From positions 1-26,014 of IMG/VR virus record IMGVR_UViG_3300003886_000046: 26,014 nt of DNA. One strand, 5' to 3'. Numbering within the stretch: position 1 is the stretch's first letter; every line of letters begins with the position of its first letter. The translations under genes and the position numbers were made by a program. Below, piece after piece: positions 16,661-25,090 of this stretch. The DNA is from a virus. Under the pieces are notes generated by a model. It was given only the letters and a program-made list of their open reading frames with translations, had not been told where the DNA came from and made no database searches.

Positions 16661-16924
16661 TTATAAACTCTCAAACACATGAAATATCAGTGTGGCATTA
16701 GCCATTTGATAAGTGCCAATATATTTTCTTGTCGTGTCCGGCAGTACGTGACCAGTGCCATGTATCGCTATTTGTCTGGCCTCAGTAAGCTGCTCTGTGT
16801 CAATTCTCGCCCATAAACAAGGCTCACCATTTTGTATCTGCACAGTAAGTATCTCAGCACCAACTGGCATTTGCACTTCCTGCTTGTCAATTGTTTGTAA
16901 ATTAAATTTCCAGATACTAATCAT
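16661..16924 (-). CDS. Conserved phage protein (DUF7352-like)
   Basis: 87 residues: MISIWKFNLQTIDKQEVQMP, VGAEILTVQIQNGEPCLWAR, then IHGTGHVLP and YIGTYQ...LIFHVFE. This strand-rich pattern recurs in small phage and bacterial proteins (DUF7352, from memory). Role unknown. Confidence 0.75.
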   Translation of the reverse strand: MISIWKFNLQTIDKQEVQMPVGAEILTVQIQNGEPCLWARIDTEQLTEARQIAIHGTGHVLPDTTRKYIGTYQMANATLIFHVFESL

Positions 16925-16970
16925 TTCGGTTTCCTCTTCCTGTTATATTCATTTAACCATACTCCTTCAA

Positions 16971-17717
16971 CTATAACCCGCATCCAAATGGAGACCCGCA
17001 TCCAACATCAAACAGATCATCCTGATCTGGATTATACTTTCCGTGTCCATATTTTGCCCATTCAACCACCTGTCTAATCCCTTTTGCGCCGTTGTGGCGT
17101 TTTGGCCTGAACATTGTCTTTTTCACCTCTGCTTCAAGTGCTTCAACCTTTGCAATATCTTTAACTGATAATATCTTAAAATCACCTGAACTCGCATTAA
17201 CACAAGGCGAACATTCAAGGCTTCTGTGTGGCAAAACGCCAAACGGCGTCCTGCTTATCAATTCATCCCTGTCTTCGTCTGTATAATTGAATAATGGGTG
17301 GACTAAAAGCCTGCATCCGTGATAGTCAGATATTGTCACTGGCTGGGTATTCTTCCTCTCTTTGCTTTCAACTCTGCGTTTTCCAACCATCACAACAGCA
17401 TCACAATCAGGGTCAATATCATCTATCCAATTCAGAAACGGTATTCCCTTCAATAGCCCTGAACACCACTGAAACCGCTGGTTTGGAAACCCTTTTTTGT
17501 CTATCATTAACTGCTTAAACTTAATTTCAGGGCGAATAGTGAGAACTTCAAAGCCTAATGACGTTGCGTATTCTTCACAGTCGTTTACACGTTTAGTCCA
17601 CGTCTCAGCCGCCCACCCAGTTTCGATGTATACGCAGGTAGCATCTATATCATTTTCATAGCACCATCGAATCATAGCAATTGAATCATTACCATAGCTA
17701 GTTGACACTACATTCAT
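16971..17717 (-). CDS. PAPS reductase-family PP-loop protein
   Basis: 248 residues. PP-loop STSYGNDSIAMI (5-16), a variant of SGGxDS, binds adenylyl-type nucleotides; VGKRRVESKERKN near 111-123 and RFQWCSGLLKG near 81-91 fit the CysH/PAPS reductase-like fold. ECSPCVN (169-174) and a C-terminal GCGSPFGCG add cysteine pairs that could bind a cluster or metal. In phages such proteins are linked to sulfur metabolism or DNA modification; true sulfate reduction is doubtful. The start overlaps the previous stop by 4 nt. Confidence 0.88.
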   Translation of the reverse strand: MNVVSTSYGNDSIAMIRWCYENDIDATCVYIETGWAAETWTKRVNDCEEYATSLGFEVLTIRPEIKFKQLMIDKKGFPNQRFQWCSGLLKGIPFLNWIDDIDPDCDAVVMVGKRRVESKERKNTQPVTISDYHGCRLLVHPLFNYTDEDRDELISRTPFGVLPHRSLECSPCVNASSGDFKILSVKDIAKVEALEAEVKKTMFRPKRHNGAKGIRQVVEWAKYGHGKYNPDQDDLFDVGCGSPFGCGL

Positions 17718-18109
17718 TTAACCATGCTCCTCGCCAGTTCTTCGTTCCCCGTACCCTTAAAATAATCAGTGTACGCCTCATGTGTTCTCGGCATTTCAGC
17801 CAGATAACTCCCGATATCCTTGTTCTGGAAATTAGCTGCACGTAAATGTGTCTTGATATGATATAGCTTAAATCCGTATTTGTTCGCCAGTCCCTTGTAG
17901 TATTCTATCTCGTCAAGCGGTATAGAGGCGATTTCAAGGCAGTTGCCACAGATCTCTTCACTACCATATCGTTTCAGGTATTTGCTTCGTGTCATGGCGG
18001 AACAGCGGTTGCAGCGTATCATCTCTTCGCGCTTGCTTACCTTATTCGGCGAATACCCGCATGCGCAAATCTTGCCTCTGAATGTGCTATTACAATCTGG
18101 GCAGCGCAT
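17714..18109 (-). CDS. Double zinc-ribbon protein
   Basis: 131 residues. MRCPDCNSTFRGKICACGYS gives C-x2-C...C-x-C; IRCNRCSAMTR and CGNC give a second zinc site near 32-57. The C-terminal part is helical. Directly upstream of the PAPS-like gene with a 4-nt overlap, so the two may work together; phage gene with zinc ribbons otherwise not assignable. Confidence 0.78.
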   Translation of the reverse strand: MRCPDCNSTFRGKICACGYSPNKVSKREEMIRCNRCSAMTRSKYLKRYGSEEICGNCLEIASIPLDEIEYYKGLANKYGFKLYHIKTHLRAANFQNKDIGSYLAEMPRTHEAYTDYFKGTGNEELARSMVK

Positions 18110-18124
18110 TATAAATATCCTGTT

Positions 18125-18376
18125 TCACTTTGGCAGATCCGGCAGCGGCATCCAATGAGTAACATCATCACTTGTAAATTGGAGGTTGTAGCCATAGTCC
18201 CACATTATCCTTGTGTTACCGATAAACCAATCGTCACCGTCACCAACTCTTCCTCCAACGCATATCTCCTCTGATTCAACGTTGGTTCCTTCATCAAATT
18301 TCTGATAGATAATCAAAAGCAGTACACTTCTGTTTATTTCCGGCAACCGGTCATCTGTACTTATCCACTCACTCAT
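18125..18376 (-). CDS. DUF551 protein, copy 1
   Basis: 83 residues from ATG 18376 (MSEWISTDDRLPE), chosen because AAAGGGCAG lies upstream; ends VTHWMPLPDLP, the DUF551 signature in many phages. Role unknown. A second DUF551 protein lies at 18574-18789. Confidence 0.85.
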   Translation of the reverse strand: MSEWISTDDRLPEINRSVLLLIIYQKFDEGTNVESEEICVGGRVGDGDDWFIGNTRIMWDYGYNLQFTSDDVTHWMPLPDLPK

Positions 18377-18584
18377 TATTCTGCCCTTTATTGGCCTGCT
18401 TTCTCTCATATATTATCCTTTTTTTATAGCCAAGTGCAGAGGCAACTGAATCGATCATGTTCCTTTTTTTATTGATTATCTTGCTAACATTCCCTGCATT
18501 TAAATTGTGCTTCCTGCAAAACACCCTAAGCCCGTTCTTACACTCTACCTCTAGCTTGCTTATTAAATCTTCCTCATCCATCAC
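18369..18584 (-). CDS. Helix-turn-helix protein
   Basis: 71 residues. GLRVFCRKHNLNAGNVSKII followed by NKKRNMIDSVASALGYKK fits a small helix-turn-helix DNA-binding domain, as in phage Cro-like and transcription-modulating proteins. AGGAG precedes GTG 18584 / ATG 18581. It overlaps both DUF551 genes by 8-11 nt. Confidence 0.75.
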   Translation of the reverse strand: MMDEEDLISKLEVECKNGLRVFCRKHNLNAGNVSKIINKKRNMIDSVASALGYKKRIIYERKQANKGQNNE

Positions 18585-18789
18585 AGCAATTCTCCTGAAT
18601 AGTTATTGGCAGATCCTGGAGCGGCATCCAGTGAGTTGGCAACGGAAACATAGCAGGCAACCCAGGCGCATCTATTCTCCACCCTGAGTTGGCCCCGCCG
18701 TAATATCCAACAAACTGAGATTCAGGCCTATATAGCAGCATATGCGAACCATCTTTTGGCGCTGTATCTATTGGTTTCCACTCACTCAT
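18574..18789 (-). CDS. DUF551 protein, copy 2
   Basis: 71 residues: MSEWKPIDTAPKDGSHMLLY, ending PTHWMPLQDLP, as in DUF551. Only the two ends resemble copy 1, so this is an old paralogue or separate acquisition. The ATG overlaps the previous stop by 4 nt. Confidence 0.82.
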   Translation of the reverse strand: MSEWKPIDTAPKDGSHMLLYRPESQFVGYYGGANSGWRIDAPGLPAMFPLPTHWMPLQDLPITIQENCCDG

Positions 18790-19031
18790 TGCCCTTCTCC
18801 TTTATTTGCTTGTTTATACTTTTTGTACGCTGCATCAAGCTGCCTGTCTGCATATCCAATCGCTTGGCCGAAAGAACCATCTGTAGCTTCGCGAACCTCT
18901 TTCAGTTGCCGCTCTATTAAAGATGAACTACCGAACGGAAATGCAGTCGCATTCATCAGGACTTCCCACTGCTCTCCTTCAGTTAGACCTGGATAATATT
19001 TCTGTAGTGCCAATACACATTTATTGCACAT
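18786..19031 (-). CDS. Hypothetical phage protein
   Basis: 81 residues. MCNKCVLALQKYYPGLTEGE has a C-x2-C; the rest is helical (ERQLKEVREATDGSFGQAIG then YADRQLDAAYKKYKQ). Overlaps the P-like gene by 11 nt. Not recognised beyond being phage-typical. Confidence 0.7.
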   Translation of the reverse strand: MCNKCVLALQKYYPGLTEGEQWEVLMNATAFPFGSSSLIERQLKEVREATDGSFGQAIGYADRQLDAAYKKYKQANKGEGQ

Positions 19032-19500
19032 TCTTTATTGCCTCAAGTGACTGAATGTAGCAATCGTCATACATTCCTCTTATCCTGGTTTCGATAACCC
19101 GTTGCGGCTGGTGGCCTATATCCCAAGTTCCGATTGACTTTCTTATTTCGTAACTAACAGGGTCTGTGCATTTATCTGATATTACCCTGTTTATAACTTG
19201 ATTTACGTCAGGCAGATCAAGCGCACTCCTGATAAATTCAGGGACATTCGGATTCCAGTCAGATATTCTTATGCCCTTCTCTAATCCATGTTCAATTTGT
19301 TCGTCAGTAAGGAACCAGCAATATTTCGCCCACACACCCTGCGCAGACTCAAGTTCTTCTTTTGTGCCAAACGCTGACATAAATCTCTTACCGTAGATTG
19401 ATCTAAGTGTCCAGAATATTGTCGCTACCTGCCGTTTACTTAAACGCTTCTCTTGCCTGCTCTTGGAGACACCTTTCTGCTTCAGTTTGTCTATTTCCAT
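19021..19500 (-). CDS. Replication protein P-like helicase loader
   Basis: 159 residues. FWTLRSIYGKRFMSAFGTKE, WFLTDEQIEHGLEKGIRISD and WNPNVPEFIRSAL match the lambda P family pattern (loader that brings host DnaB to the phage origin). Placed immediately after the O-like gene, as in lambdoid phages, with a 65-nt overlap that implies coupling or a later true start. Confidence 0.8.
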   Translation of the reverse strand: MEIDKLKQKGVSKSRQEKRLSKRQVATIFWTLRSIYGKRFMSAFGTKEELESAQGVWAKYCWFLTDEQIEHGLEKGIRISDWNPNVPEFIRSALDLPDVNQVINRVISDKCTDPVSYEIRKSIGTWDIGHQPQRVIETRIRGMYDDCYIQSLEAIKNVQ

Positions 19501-19900
19501 TACCGTTTGACCTCATTTTTATTACAAGTTGATCGTATTGTTTCCTGAGTTTCGCAGGGCTAAGAATATTTGCCTGCCAGAAACTATCATCATTCGCCCA
19601 TGCAAAGACACTTCTAATTTCATCCGTACCCCTGTCATCAAGCTGGCGCATTTTCCTGATATCACTGGCCCACGTTTTAAGATTTGGTTCTTTTGATTTG
19701 CTGTTTAATCGTTTGACACCAGAATAAATCAGTTTTGCAGTAGTCATATCGTCGTCAGAGTATTTTTTTCCTGTCTTCTCGTTGAGAAAGGATAGGATCT
19801 GTCTTGCAGGATCGCCGCCAATGAGAATAAGCTGCTTGTCTATGCCAGCTATTTGTATTTGTAGCTGATGTCTTTTTGCTGTTAGCTCTTCGTATGTCAT
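19436..19900 (-). CDS. O-like replication protein (C-terminal type)
   Basis: 154 residues. N-terminal coiled coil (TAKRHQLQIQIAGIDKQLIL), then ILSFLNEKTGKKYSDDDMTT, and WANDDSFWQANILSPAKLRK, a C-terminal signature of phage replication initiators. The winged-helix origin-binding part of typical O proteins is missing, so it may act with another factor or be a reduced initiator. No iteron-like origin is visible within it. Confidence 0.7.
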   Translation of the reverse strand: MTYEELTAKRHQLQIQIAGIDKQLILIGGDPARQILSFLNEKTGKKYSDDDMTTAKLIYSGVKRLNSKSKEPNLKTWASDIRKMRQLDDRGTDEIRSVFAWANDDSFWQANILSPAKLRKQYDQLVIKMRSNGNGNRQTEAERCLQEQAREAFK

Positions 19901-19909
19901 GTTTTACCC

Positions 19910-20431
19910 TTAGTTTGCAGGAATAGATAAATGCGCTATATACACCCCAAGATCTCTTAGTGTTTGCACTTGGATCATGTGGTTGTACGTGTAATAAGAC
20001 TTTCCGTTCCTGATGGTTGGCTCATTATTCTTTATTGGTTCACCCCAGTTTTCAGCGTTATTCTTTACAACACAAAGCAGGTTTGGCATTTGCATTACCA
20101 ATGCGATAGTGTCTTTTGTATGCTTAAAACACTTATCCCAATAATAGTACAGCCAAAAGGCTTCCGTTTCCTTGTGCGCCCAACCCTTAACTATTGCTCC
20201 ATCTTCATATTCGTGGTGATGCTCAAGGCACACATCATATTTATAATATGTCCGCCTCTGTTTTACTTGCACGCCTATAGCTCCACACCAGAAATCTACC
20301 CCTTTGTAATAATCCTCTTCAAAATTAGCCAGCCTTATCTTGTATTCACGAGGGGGAAACTTCTGAAATATGATGTCCCTGATAGGGCTTATCTCGGCTT
20401 GCGCTACATCTTTGTCATAATTATAAACCAC
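19910..20431 (-). CDS. Possible PD-(D/E)xK-type nuclease
   Basis: About 173 residues. YYKGVDFWCGAIGVQVKQRR carries the D...QVK arrangement of PD-(D/E)xK enzymes such as resolvases and small phage nucleases, followed by helix YDVCLEHHHEYEDGAIVKGW and AFWLYYYWDK. GTG at 20431 (GGGGG upstream) is preferred; an ATG at 20485 would overlap the methyltransferase by 65 nt. Assignment rests on one motif. Confidence 0.55.
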   Translation of the reverse strand: MVYNYDKDVAQAEISPIRDIIFQKFPPREYKIRLANFEEDYYKGVDFWCGAIGVQVKQRRTYYKYDVCLEHHHEYEDGAIVKGWAHKETEAFWLYYYWDKCFKHTKDTIALVMQMPNLLCVVKNNAENWGEPIKNNEPTIRNGKSYYTYNHMIQVQTLRDLGVYIAHLSIPAN

Positions 20432-21398
20432 TTTGATTCCCCCATGCGTTCCACCCTGGCTGTGAGTTACGGCAAAACAGTTCAATCTTAGAGCGATCTG
20501 GGTACATTGAATTAAGCATTTCTATTACTTCAACAGGTTTTGCGCTGTGCTCACCTCGCTTAAAGGAAAACACTGATGGCTTCCTGTCTGACGGGGACGG
20601 GGTTGGCAGTTTCCCTTTTGCAGCAACTAATAACAATTCATGCTGCTGCCTAAAATAATATCCCATGCCTATTTTTTTCTTATCCCATATAGCGCAAGTT
20701 CTGTATATAAACCCCCAGTCTTCAATAACTCTCATTGATTCGGCAAGTTTCGGGCTGGTTGCCCACAAGTAAAGTACGCTATCGTCTGCGGCTAAATCGC
20801 TCACAGGCAAATCACATATATCATCTAACTCCATTGTCGGATATTGATTCTCGACCGCTCTGCTGGTGGTTTTTACGTGTTCGTACCTCCATGGAGGATC
20901 TGCATAAATGACTTGATATTTCCCTTCAGGCAAGGCCGTAGAAAACTCATTTATCTCCGCACACTTAGAAGCGATTGCCAGCTTTCTAACAGTGTTGCTT
21001 GTTAATTCTTTCTGGCTATTGTGGTGTTCTGAGACTATGGTCTCGAACTCTAACTCCGGTATTGAAGCTGTAGCCTGTGCGCGACTAGACATTGATTTAG
21101 AGATGCCCATGTCTGCAAGGGTTAGTGGATCGGTGTCACCCTGCGACCTGTCCTCATATTGGTTGCTGCCGGACGGCTTTGCCATCAACCCGGCTTCTTT
21201 CTGAGCCTTTAGCATTTCACCAAGCCTACGTTCCGCACGTATTCTTATTTCTGAAGCCCTATTTAACATCTCAAAATCCTTAGCCTGCCTCGCATAAACT
21301 CTCATGGCTTCGGATTTATCCATAATCTGCTTAACTTCATCTACATTAGAAGCCTCGATTATTGCTTTTCTGGCCATGTCATATTTAACTAGTTCCAT
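20421..21398 (-). CDS. MT-A70 family N6-adenine methyltransferase
   Basis: 325 residues from ATG 21398, AAGGA upstream. N-terminal helical ParB-like region (RAERRLGEMLKAQKEAG), then the MT-A70 catalytic domain: QVIYADPPWRY with the DPPW motif at about 167-170, LYLWATSPKL, and FSFKRGEHSAKPVEVIEMLN for SAM-fold completion; ends ELFCRNSQPGWNAWGN. It would methylate adenine, probably to protect phage DNA from restriction or control replication. Located with O/P-like genes in the early operon. Confidence 0.92.
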   Translation of the reverse strand: MELVKYDMARKAIIEASNVDEVKQIMDKSEAMRVYARQAKDFEMLNRASEIRIRAERRLGEMLKAQKEAGLMAKPSGSNQYEDRSQGDTDPLTLADMGISKSMSSRAQATASIPELEFETIVSEHHNSQKELTSNTVRKLAIASKCAEINEFSTALPEGKYQVIYADPPWRYEHVKTTSRAVENQYPTMELDDICDLPVSDLAADDSVLYLWATSPKLAESMRVIEDWGFIYRTCAIWDKKKIGMGYYFRQQHELLLVAAKGKLPTPSPSDRKPSVFSFKRGEHSAKPVEVIEMLNSMYPDRSKIELFCRNSQPGWNAWGNQSGL

Positions 21399-21509
21399 AC
21401 TTTGTTCCTTCAGTTCAGATTGTTGAAGTTTCAGGCACACAAGCCTTTAGTAAACAAATACTATTAGCCTGTGCCTTGTTCCTTTCAGACGAGTTGCGTC
21501 GATTCAGGC

Positions 21510-21881
21510 TCATATTCGGTTACCTTCGATATGAGTAATCAGATTAAGCCTGTGGTATGGCTCTTGCGGGTTCTGATTGCCAGTAGCACAAGCACCCTGT
21601 GTAGTTTGCCGTTTCCCAAGTACTACACTTGATTCACGACATGCCTTAGCGGTATTTATGTCTGCCACATATCGTGGTTTTGTTGTGCTACTGGGAAAAA
21701 CATGCCCTGTCGGTGTCATGTTGCCTAAAAAATAGGCAAATGTTGCACAAAAAATAGGCAACTGCTTGACACAAAGGACATATGGAAGGATAATTGCTTG
21801 CATATGTCTGGTTAGCACCGACAAAGTTACACCATTAAGCCGATCAGCGCAACATTTGCCTGGTTGGCTTTTTGCTGTCAT
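21510..21881 (-). CDS. Short protein overlapped by antisense RNA and operators
   Basis: 123 residues if started at ATG 21881 (MTAKSQPGK), a start shared with the next upstream gene by duplication of an 18-bp leader. The first part is encoded opposite the predicted small RNA and the repeats at 21721-21761; ATG at 21719 (MTPTGHVFP) would start after them. The C-terminal part (KPRYVADINTAKACRESSVV then YHRLNLITHIEGN) resembles short regulatory-region proteins of prophages. Real gene uncertain. Confidence 0.5.
   Translation of the reverse strand: MTAKSQPGKCCADRLNGVTLSVLTRHMQAIILPYVLCVKQLPIFCATFAYFLGNMTPTGHVFPSSTTKPRYVADINTAKACRESSVVLGKRQTTQGACATGNQNPQEPYHRLNLITHIEGNRI
21721..21761. promoter_or_regulatory. 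Tandem operator
   Basis: Perfect dyad TTGCCTA-N5-TAGGCAA at 21721-21739 and a partial copy TTGCACA-N5-TAGGCAA at 21743-21761, repeat period 22 bp (two helical turns). It ends 4 nt before the -35 of the plus-strand promoter, a typical repressor position. Confidence 0.75.
21766..21794 (+). promoter_or_regulatory. Strong plus-strand sigma70 promoter
   Basis: TTGACA (21766-21771), 17-nt spacer, GATAAT (21789-21794): consensus -35 and 5 of 6 in the -10. Predicted start near 21801. It points against the surrounding minus-strand operon. Confidence 0.8.
21801..21873 (+). ncRNA. Predicted ~73-nt antisense RNA, OOP-like position
   Basis: Bounded by the promoter at 21766-21794 and a Rho-independent terminator at 21837-21873; no open frame of note inside. 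It is antisense to the 5' end of the 123-residue minus-strand frame and lies upstream of the methyltransferase and O/P-like genes. Lambda OOP RNA (77 nt, antisense near cII, just upstream of O) has the same placement and size; homology is not claimed. Confidence 0.65.
21837..21873 (+). terminator. Rho-independent terminator of the antisense RNA
   Basis: Stem AAGCCGATCAG (21837-21847) pairs with CTGGTTGGCTT (21860-21870) with two G-U pairs; inner GCAA/TTGC stem on a three-base loop; followed by a T tract (21869-21873). Confidence 0.75.
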
Positions 21882-22189
21882 GTGCGCGGCTCTCCGTTGT
21901 TATCGAAGCCAGATATATGTTCAAACCCATGCGTTGCTGCATACGATAAAAAATGGTTGCTGCGGTAAAGTTGCTTATCGAAATATGTCCCAATCATGAT
22001 ATAGTAACAATCTTTAAACCACAGATAGTGCTCTTCGCCACGAATATAGTATGTTCTCTCTTGTTGCAAGTTATTTGCATTCAGAAAGTCGATGTACTGC
22101 CTATAGTTCCCTGCAAACACCAGAAGTCTTTTTTTAAGTCTAGTATTTTTTGCTAAAATCAATCCACCCTTTTGGCTTTTTGCTGTCAT
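21878..22189 (-). CDS. Hypothetical phage protein
   Basis: 103 residues from ATG 22189 (AGGAAA upstream); open further to GTG 22231. Basic start (MTAKSQKGGLILAKNTRLKK) then LLVFAGNYRQYIDFLNANNL and RGEEHYLWFKDCYYIMIGTY, a compact alpha/beta pattern as in small phage nucleotide- or DNA-related proteins; no family recognised. Its first six residues and 18 bp of DNA are repeated at the start of the next gene downstream. Confidence 0.7.
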   Translation of the reverse strand: MTAKSQKGGLILAKNTRLKKRLLVFAGNYRQYIDFLNANNLQQERTYYIRGEEHYLWFKDCYYIMIGTYFDKQLYRSNHFLSYAATHGFEHISGFDNNGEPRT

Positions 22190-22273
22190 TTGTTCATTTC
22201 CTGTATTTCTTCTTGTGTATACGTCCGACACTTTTTTATTTTCAAATAAGCCGCATTCAGTGACTTCTGTCAG

Positions 22274-22444
22274 TTAGGTAAGCATTTTAAGAAGCAGCTC
22301 TCTGTAGACGAGTATTTCTCTACACAACTCTGCATTGGTTTTGAGGCCTTTCCCAATATCATGTTTTAGATCCGCCATTTCTTCCTCAAGCTCGCAGGTA
22401 GGGCACTGTCGTTTTAGCTGGCCGTGTTTACATTCGTTGGTCAT
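22274..22444 (-). CDS. Small zinc-binding/coiled-coil protein
   Basis: 56 residues. MTNECKHGQLKRQCPTCELE gives C/H ligands; the rest is a helix with ADLKHDIGKGLKTNAELCRE, nearly identical to a block in the protein at 25087-25380, including a DNA stretch of about 31 identical bases. A shortened paralogue or recombinant of that gene. Confidence 0.7.
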   Translation of the reverse strand: MTNECKHGQLKRQCPTCELEEEMADLKHDIGKGLKTNAELCREILVYRELLLKMLT

Positions 22445-22471
22445 TTCACCATACCCTGTATGTTGCTCATA

Positions 22472-22693
22472 TCAATCCCTTAAACTATCTGTTTGCTGAT
22501 TACGCAGCTGCAAATACTCAATCAATCCTGATGCCTCAGCTGCGACACTATTAATTTGTATAGTACAATAACCCTCCCGTCCCTGGTCGTCTTCGCCATA
22601 TATCTCATAATCATTTGATTCAATCTGGTAGGGTTCTGCTGCTGCAAGCTCTGCTAGTTTCCACTTGATCGTTGCAATTTCATCTTCAGTCAT
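22472..22693 (-). CDS. Hypothetical acidic protein
   Basis: 73 residues, acidic (MTEDEIATIKWKLAELAAAE, then YEIYGEDDQGREGYCTIQIN), helix-strand mix. Preceded by the recurring ribosome-site cassette AGGAGATTGATATG. Not recognised. Confidence 0.7.
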   Translation of the reverse strand: MTEDEIATIKWKLAELAAAEPYQIESNDYEIYGEDDQGREGYCTIQINSVAAEASGLIEYLQLRNQQTDSLRD

Positions 22694-23207: not shown

Positions 23208-23396
23208 TCAATCTCCTTTGCTTGCAATAAACAAAATAAGCTCAGCGTCTTTATCCTGCCCAGCACCAAGTAATTTCCCGCTGGCCCAGCTTATCAATCC
23301 GCGCAGTCTTTTTATCTCAGCATCTACCTCATATTTTGGGTAAAATAATCCGCTCTCTTCTGTTAATCCAGCACCACCGAAATATCTTGATTTCAT
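23208..23396 (-). CDS. Duplicated module, gene B copy 1
   Basis: 62 residues. MKSRYFGGAGLTEESGLFYP, then VDAEIKRLRGLISWASGKLL; about 80 percent identical to 24600-24797 over the first 50 residues, with divergent ends. Amphipathic helix content suggests protein binding. 4-nt overlap with the previous gene; the stop is part of the next gene's ribosome-site cassette. Function unknown. Confidence 0.75.
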   Translation of the reverse strand: MKSRYFGGAGLTEESGLFYPKYEVDAEIKRLRGLISWASGKLLGAGQDKDAELILFIASKGD

Positions 23397-23647
23397 TTCA
23401 CCAGCTCCCTTGCATGTTTGACTAATGCTGTTAAATGCTTTTGTGCGCCATTATGCTGCTCGAAAATAGATAAGCCCTTAATTATGTCAACAATGTCAGC
23501 AAAATCACCTATCAGCTTGTCTCTGGCGGCCAGGGTTTCCTTGTGATCTTTGTATAAAACGTAATTTCCAGCAGTTTTATGCTCCTGCATTGAGCCACAG
23601 CACGATACGCCATACTTAATGCACGATAAATTATAGCGTTTAATCAT
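23393..23647 (-). CDS. Duplicated module, gene A copy 1
   Basis: 84 residues. MIKRYNLSCIKYGVSCCGSM followed by QEH... is identical at its start to 24794-25090; the middle diverges and the end KHARELVK matches a motif shared by three proteins here. Cysteine-rich N-terminus (C9, C16, C17) may bind metal. Function unknown. Confidence 0.75.
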   Translation of the reverse strand: MIKRYNLSCIKYGVSCCGSMQEHKTAGNYVLYKDHKETLAARDKLIGDFADIVDIIKGLSIFEQHNGAQKHLTALVKHARELVK

Positions 23648-24360: not shown

Positions 24361-24603
24361 TCATTGCATGCCCTCAACAAAGTCTTTTGCATCCCTTAAA
24401 GACTTTCCAGTTTCACTCCTACAAAGCCGTATAGCATCAAGCTTTCTCCCCTCCTTAACCAAGCACCACGCCTGATATTCCCAGTTATCAACGCTTGCAG
24501 CATCAAAAACAGCCTTTGGGTGCTTTTTTGCGATCTCAATTACAATACTTTTCCAGTCCTGTTCTTTGCTACATATCTCTAACGCTTTCGCATAATAATT
24601 CAT
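24361..24603 (-). CDS. Protein with bL12-like C-terminal motif
   Basis: 80 residues. The end KLDAIRLCRSETGKSLRDAK then DFVEGM resembles the ribosomal bL12 C-terminal motif (KxxIKxVRxxTGLGLKEAKDLVE), which in bL12 recruits translation factors. The N-terminal half (KALEICSKEQDWKSIVIEIA) is helical. Possibly interacts with translation factors; alternatively a generic helical phage protein. Confidence 0.6.
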   Translation of the reverse strand: MNYYAKALEICSKEQDWKSIVIEIAKKHPKAVFDAASVDNWEYQAWCLVKEGRKLDAIRLCRSETGKSLRDAKDFVEGMQ

Positions 24604-24797
24604 TTTCTTGCATCCCCTAAAGTAAGTTTATCAAGCAGTGTCTCAGCGTCTCTATCCTGCCCAGCATCAAGTAATTTACCGCTGGCCCAGCTTATCAATC
24701 CGCGCAGTCTTTTTATCTCAGCATCTACCTCAGATTTCGGGTAAAATAATCTGCTCTCTTCTGTTAATCCAGCGCCACCGAAATATCTTGCTTTCAT
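24600..24797 (-). CDS. Duplicated module, gene B copy 2
   Basis: 65 residues, MKARYFGGAGLTEESRLFYP..., paralogue of 23208-23396; most differences are at the C-terminus. Overlaps both neighbours by 4 nt. Confidence 0.75.
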   Translation of the reverse strand: MKARYFGGAGLTEESRLFYPKSEVDAEIKRLRGLISWASGKLLDAGQDRDAETLLDKLTLGDARK

Positions 24798-25090
24798 TTC
24801 TCCATCTCTCTGGCTTGTTTGATTATCCTTTCATACGAAAGTGGAAAAGATAATGCGTTGTAGGCTTCAAGTAATGTAGCCATCTCACCTATCAGCTTGT
24901 CTCTGGTTGCTAAATCCTTTGCTTGACTGTTTACTGTTTTAGAAAGTTTAAGCTGATATTTTAATGAACCGTCCAAGGCTTTCAGGTGGTCTTCATATAG
25001 AACATAGCGTCCACCAGTCGCGTGTTCCTGCATTGAGCCGCAACACGATACGCCATACTTAATGCACGATAAATTATAGCGTTTAATCAT
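24794..25090 (-). CDS. Duplicated module, gene A copy 2
   Basis: 98 residues, the longer paralogue of 23393-23647: same cysteine-rich start (MIKRYNLSCIKYGVSCCGSM), an additional helical insertion (KYQLKLSKTVNSQAKDLATR), then RDKLIGEMATLLE and the shared end KQAREMEK. Confidence 0.75.
   Translation of the reverse strand: MIKRYNLSCIKYGVSCCGSMQEHATGGRYVLYEDHLKALDGSLKYQLKLSKTVNSQAKDLATRDKLIGEMATLLEAYNALSFPLSYERIIKQAREMEK

Follow-up and report, generated by a model that had tools for sequence, protein, structure and literature searches.

To our knowledge, few phage systems, namely lambda OOP and P1, have an antisense RNA at their replication genes. In plasmids of the IncFII group and their relatives, CopA-CopT control, by which an antisense RNA sets the copy number of the replicon, combines a strong promoter, a short antisense RNA with two hairpins, a long bulged terminator stem, and a short ORF that precedes the replication genes. 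Lambda OOP (pO-oop-tO) is a short RNA, transcribed from a promoter of its own to a Rho-independent terminator and antisense to the mRNA running toward O and P; loss of its target mRNA depends on RNase III. Its overlap with the 3' end of cII is 52 bases long, and a LexA site lies in its promoter region (PMC5869508). In phage P1, the antisense promoter PaskilA (formerly P53as) faces the 5' part of kilA, which precedes repL on one transcript (AF234172 annotation). P1 C4 and P4 CI are phage antisense RNAs that act on a small ORF in an early operon. In extrachromosomal mycobacterial prophages, a phage-borne non-coding RNA is tied to replication and has been proposed as its initiator (PMC7157519).

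We analyzed a locus in a 26,014-nt stretch of viral DNA (the window), which is contig C5 of a 60%-complete MAG and whose relatives point to a gammaproteobacterial origin. Like lambda OOP, its predicted RNA is short, has its own promoter and Rho-independent terminator, and is antisense to an mRNA leading to O-like and P-like genes, a likeness seen here in sequence only. A first, sequence-only reading had assigned it the place that OOP holds in lambda. This was not borne out, as OOP lies over the 3' end of cII while the RNA described here covers the 5' end of a 123-codon ORF. Neither ORF at the element has a cII-like match in Pfam, PHROG or NCBIfam, and no LexA site with three or fewer mismatches occurs from 16848 to 22545. 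The closest arrangement appears to be the P1 antisense RNA over kilA, a likeness of position taken from the AF234172 annotation. However, the annotation of the stretch viewed shows neither a dyad nor a DnaA-box array next to PaskilA, and the kilA-repL genes differ. In RNA shape, CopA control seems closer than OOP, since the strong promoter, the two-hairpin shape, the long bulged terminator stem, and the place over a short ORF upstream of replication genes are shared. The RNA nevertheless matches no Rfam family, C4 and CopA included, lies more than 1 kb from the replication genes, and does not belong to a RepA replicon. It resembles C4 and CI in its relation to a small early ORF, but in the AF234172 annotation C4 and its target icd-ant mRNA share a strand, whereas our RNA is on the strand opposite its target, and the window has no Ash-family match. 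An Ash/Icd-like leader, hinted at by the ORF tail TGNQNPQEPYHR, was considered and rejected: its own genome gave no Pfam PF10554 match (control genomes also gave none, though class members were recovered this way), and the two class members recovered lack the motif. Unlike the mycobacterial RNA-based origins, the window encodes replication proteins and the RNA is antisense.

A predicted antisense RNA inside a replication operon

The RNA gene and the minus-strand genes around it are listed here.

21766..21794, plus strand: sigma-70-type promoter TTGACA-17-GATAAT of the predicted antisense RNA, read from sequence; hexamers and spacing are the same in the relative L063 (L063:109-81, minus strand)
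21801..21875 (or 21876), plus strand: predicted antisense RNA of ~70-76 nt with two hairpins, from folding and inference
21837..21875, plus strand: Rho-independent terminator AAGCCGATCAG-c-GCAA-CAT-TTGC-CTGGTTGGCTT, then a T-run
21878..22189, minus strand: preceding ORF, whose first 18 nt are those of the 123-codon ORF
21510..21881, minus strand: 123-codon ORF over the element, with an ATGA-coupled start and a weak coding signal
20421..21398, minus strand: MT-A70 DNA methyltransferase, the next gene downstream, outside the conserved unit
19436..19900, minus strand: O-like/DnaD-like replication protein, C-terminal domain only
19021..19500, minus strand: P-like helicase loader

The promoter is the sole match of at least 11/12 in the 26-kb window, where dinucleotide shuffles expect 0.65. 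It had been described as perfect; the TTGACA-17 element is real, but the -10 is GATAAT and the match is 11/12. We infer a start at 21801, 7 nt past the -10. The terminator proposed downstream is indeed present. Its 11-bp stem, with two G-U pairs, and an inner 4-bp stem span 21837-21870 directly before the T-run, about 75 nt past the promoter, and it is the only plus-strand terminator of such strength in the window. A 76-nt RNA folds at -27.1 kcal/mol (z -4.4), with 0 of 200 shuffles as stable. The first reading had missed that 13 nt of the dyad region, in front of the promoter, recur in inverted form at the terminator loop (21734-21746/21849-21861).

The dyads, promoter, and RNA all lie within the 123-codon ORF. 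Its codon score is -0.07, against a mean of -0.21 (sd 0.13) for wrong frames and +0.08 to +0.36 for most genes. Over the element only, the score falls to -0.15 to -0.21, like noncoding DNA, and the GC skew there differs from that of the surrounding genes. The ORF is probably a translated leader or regulatory ORF. The same 18 nt, ATGACAGCAAAAAGCCAA (MTAKSQ), open both successive minus ORFs (21864-21881 and 22172-22189; 0.06 matches expected), and the second copy of TTGGCTTTTTGCTGTCAT, at 22172, had also escaped the first reading. Pairing of the RNA in trans with the duplicated start at 22189 was tried and rejected, with an unexceptional energy (rank 42 of 257). Farther along the minus strand, two pairs of closely similar small ORFs (23208-23647 and 24600-25090) reflect local duplication.

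After the 123-codon ORF come the methyltransferase, an unknown gene, the O-like/DnaD-like gene, and the P-like gene. Minus-strand ORFs continue as far as the contig's right end, and the interval from 21398 to 22447 has no minus promoter of at least 9/12. Consequently, the element appears to be internal to a long operon and not at its 5' end. The proposal of an RNA antisense to an operon leading to replication genes thus stands, given the O-like and P-like genes, but the "leader and 5' end" that it was thought to face is an ATGA-coupled internal ORF.

The unit shared with a related phage

Scanning with the O-like protein led to L063 (IMGVR_UViG_3300003886_000091; IMG/VR, 11.5 kb), several blocks of which match the window at 86-93%. 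Its positions 1-111 align to window 21874-21764 (minus strand) at 83% over 111 nt; this contig breaks off at the terminator, which leaves the upstream side outside the comparison. The promoter hexamers and their 17-bp spacing are identical (0.05 expected there by chance), as are AAGTTACACCATTAAGCCGATCAGCGCAA and the right arm of the terminator, with two bases of the terminator loop changed. Changes are concentrated between promoter and terminator and in an inverted repeat at the -10. The L063 RNA is predicted to adopt the same two-hairpin fold (z -4.5). By codon position of the ORF, whose frame is open in both phages, the 30 differences over the element divide 9/11/10. This spread indicates that the unit is kept as RNA or DNA and not as protein.

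The retained promoter, spacing, terminator stem, and fold support the earlier proposal of a self-contained, terminated antisense RNA gene, as a prediction. A spurious or relic promoter and terminator with no regulatory role would hardly show the same hexamers, spacing, and terminator stem in L063, where the surroundings have changed. Both organism and virus are uncultured, which leaves some room for such an explanation; we consider it very improbable.

The proposed link to the methyltransferase fared worse. L063 lacks the methyltransferase; there, 1.05 kb with small ORFs separates the element from the O-like gene downstream. Therefore, the methyltransferase is not part of the unit. None of the methyltransferase relatives has an upstream antisense promoter-terminator pair. 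What the two phages share is a predicted antisense-RNA gene, conserved in association with the replication operon and not with the methyltransferase. The O-like proteins themselves (window 19436-19900 and L063:1159-1491) are 96% identical over their first 47 residues and differ in their C-terminal parts, which is a domain swap within the replication protein.

We found no third member of the RNA gene in ~1,970 genome slots (some genomes repeated), INPHARED, PLSDB, or IMG/VR. RNA-model matches in other genomes were weak, came with no convincing terminator and promoter, and were judged to be chance.

The array before the promoter and the repeat over the -10

Four further features frame the promoter.

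21721..21739, plus strand: dyad 1, TTGCCTA-AAAAA-TAGGCAA, in the first 22-bp head-to-tail unit (21718-21739)
21743..21761, plus strand: dyad 2, TTGCACA-AAAAA-TAGGCAA, imperfect, in the second 22-bp unit (21740-21761)
21777..21808, either strand: inverted repeat GACATATGGAAG / CTTGCATATGTC centered on the -10, a DNA operator or an mRNA hairpin
21707..21717, minus strand: 11-mer motif GACACCGACAG, exact in L063, with predicted mRNA pairing to CTTTGTCGGTG

The 22-bp units, ATGTTGCCTAAAAAATAGGCAA and ATGTTGCACAAAAAATAGGCAA, form a head-to-tail tandem repeat with 20/22 positions identical. Two TTGCCTA-N5-TAGGCAA dyads had been claimed. Dyad 1 is a perfect 7-5-7 dyad of this sequence, but dyad 2 carries two mismatches and reads TTGCACA-N5-TAGGCAA. 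The dyads stop 4 bp before the -35, with centers at -71 and -49 from the inferred start. At their place beyond the -35, L063 carries four predicted DnaA boxes (L063:125-198), three of them TTATCCACA and one TTATTCACA, where 0.8 would be expected by chance over the whole 6.3-kb locus. The same 11-mer, GACACCGACAG, comes after the array in both phages. In other genomes of the class, L063 has matches of 22-38 nt, and most of these coincide with its DnaA-box stretch, as do weak matches in T5-like phages.

In the sequence-only reading, the dyads were repressor operators and the RNA was OOP-like; it would then be a switch acting on the lysis-lysogeny decision. Palindromic tandem sites beside a promoter would suit such a switch, as would the OOP-like length and terminator of the RNA. 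However, sites at -71 and -49 leave the promoter uncovered, and in L063 they are replaced by DnaA boxes. No other good copy of the dyad exists in the window, and the host genome holds only isolated, inexact ones. The RNA overlaps the wrong end of an ORF for an OOP, the promoter has no LexA site, and the 26 kb yielded no identifiable repressor or integrase gene. We regard this explanation as improbable. Positions upstream of the -35 are better suited to an activator or a replication-initiator array, and the dyads may be initiator or activator sites instead of repressor operators.

The motif TTGCCTA-N5-TAGGCAA-N3-TTG was found in 20 other viral contigs, many of them one phage, in unrelated surroundings. 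Two of them (L041:10600-10660 and L054:6170-6230) carry tandem TTGCCTA-N5-TAGGCAA-like sites with a 22-bp period, again in unrelated surroundings. As a guess, the dyads could be bound by the product of a 71-aa XRE-looking ORF (18369-18584), which is missing in L063 and for which a single-sequence model gives two helices only. The 455-bp stretch that holds this ORF (18161-18616; XRE-like by eye) is absent in L063 and is flanked by two similar MSEW...HWMPL ORFs; possibly, it was gained or lost via recombination between them.

Replication initiation offers another way to read the array. The 22-bp dyads would be iterons, the DnaA boxes of L063 would mark the same origin, and the plus-strand RNA would be mainly an origin-activating or priming transcript. 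The lambda origin has four iterons, 18-bp hyphenated inverted repeats joined by adenines (PMC6022878), which the two 22-bp inverted-repeat units call to mind, as a resemblance only. The units are in phase and have A-rich centers, the four DnaA boxes sit at exactly the same place and resemble DnaA-box arrays elsewhere, and an O-like protein is encoded in the operon. However, there are only two repeats, GC skew does not switch, and AT content is only 64%. Matches of the O-like protein to the PHROG O-like profiles are confined to their C-terminal part and so do not identify an iteron binder. In addition, a 75-nt terminated RNA complementary to the start of an ORF would be superfluous for an origin. 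Thus, an origin as the main role is possible, though we lean against it.

The inverted repeat over the -10, also missed in the first reading, has 12-bp arms with one mismatch (21777-21788/21797-21808; 2/500 shuffles). Centered at -8.5, it covers the -10 and the start. The arms are GACATATG/CATATGTC in the window and GACAAAGAG/CTCTTTGTC in L063, different in letters but an inverted repeat in both. In an ungapped test, a one-base bulge makes the L063 repeat unexceptional (41/500 shuffles), whereas folding shows it to be exceptional (1/200). Its position and its retention with a different sequence would fit a regulator's operator located here and not at the dyads, with the changed arms in L063 reflecting a different repressor specificity. 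However, in both phages the minus mRNA would form a hairpin from this palindrome, and a change of sequence with pairing kept is what would be expected of an RNA hairpin. We consider the operator explanation doubtful, yet worth keeping in view.

In folding of the target mRNA, the segments were more stable than 300/300 shuffles in both phages (z -4.6 and -4.8). In the window, GACACCGACAG is predicted to pair with CTTTGTCGGTG (~21824-21834, minus strand), the antisense of the 5' hairpin of the RNA; in a longer L063 fragment, its pairing is similar but weaker. Since the folds beat all shuffles in both phages, the target mRNA may contain a long-range switch, as modeled from two sequences. Downstream of the element, at 21577-21697, a 15-nt, 93% inverted repeat (TTGCCAGTAGCACAA / TTGTGCTACTGGGAA) closes another structured stretch of the minus mRNA.

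A candidate brake on phage replication

We propose, with a probability of roughly 0.6, that the locus is a cis-encoded antisense RNA gene that would restrain the phage replication operon. In support are the promoter, the terminator, the two-hairpin fold, the conservation of the unit in two phages, the array swap, and the lack of protein constraint. Because the RNA gene is kept while L063 has DnaA boxes in place of the dyads, the RNA is probably a brake on phage DNA replication and not a copy of lambda OOP.

In the proposed mechanism, the promoter at 21766-21794 (plus strand) would yield an RNA of ~70-75 nt that ends at its own terminator. Its target would be the minus-strand mRNA that continues to the replication genes. 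Over its full length, the RNA would be complementary to the 123-codon ORF at about codons 3-27, with its 3' end ~5 nt short of the start codon. Pairing would thus fall within the footprint of an initiating ribosome and could block translation of the ORF, create an RNase III target, or both. Refolding or polarity would then lower the expression of downstream genes, as an untranslated ORF would leave ~300 nt of mRNA open to polarity ahead of the methyltransferase and replication genes. The tandem array (two 22-bp dyads here, four DnaA boxes in L063) would bind a replication initiator or regulator and couple the output of the RNA, a local origin, or both to replication, through DnaA in L063 and another protein in the window. 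From the sequence, we infer the transcription, the pairing, and the lowered expression of replication genes, and likewise the identity of the array's ligand.

Several observations weigh against an antisense brake. The minus strand has no attenuator-like terminator from the RNA to the methyltransferase. Other ORFs and a distance of more than 1 kb separate the RNA from the replication genes (the O-like gene is more than 1.6 kb away), and the mRNA's own promoter is beyond view. Only two phages are known to carry the unit.

A more speculative extension, which we think rather unlikely, is that the locus is a replication-control cassette with an exchangeable initiator module. The same RNA gene would be wired to DnaA in one phage and, via iteron-like dyads, to another protein in the other. 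If so, the antisense brake would be set by the very protein that starts replication.

The analysis corrects the reading of the dyads as repressor operators. It also provides a compact case, in an uncultured gammaproteobacterial phage, in which the predicted RNA gene is kept while the adjoining array is replaced by DnaA boxes, and which would make the coupling of an antisense RNA to a replication initiator testable.
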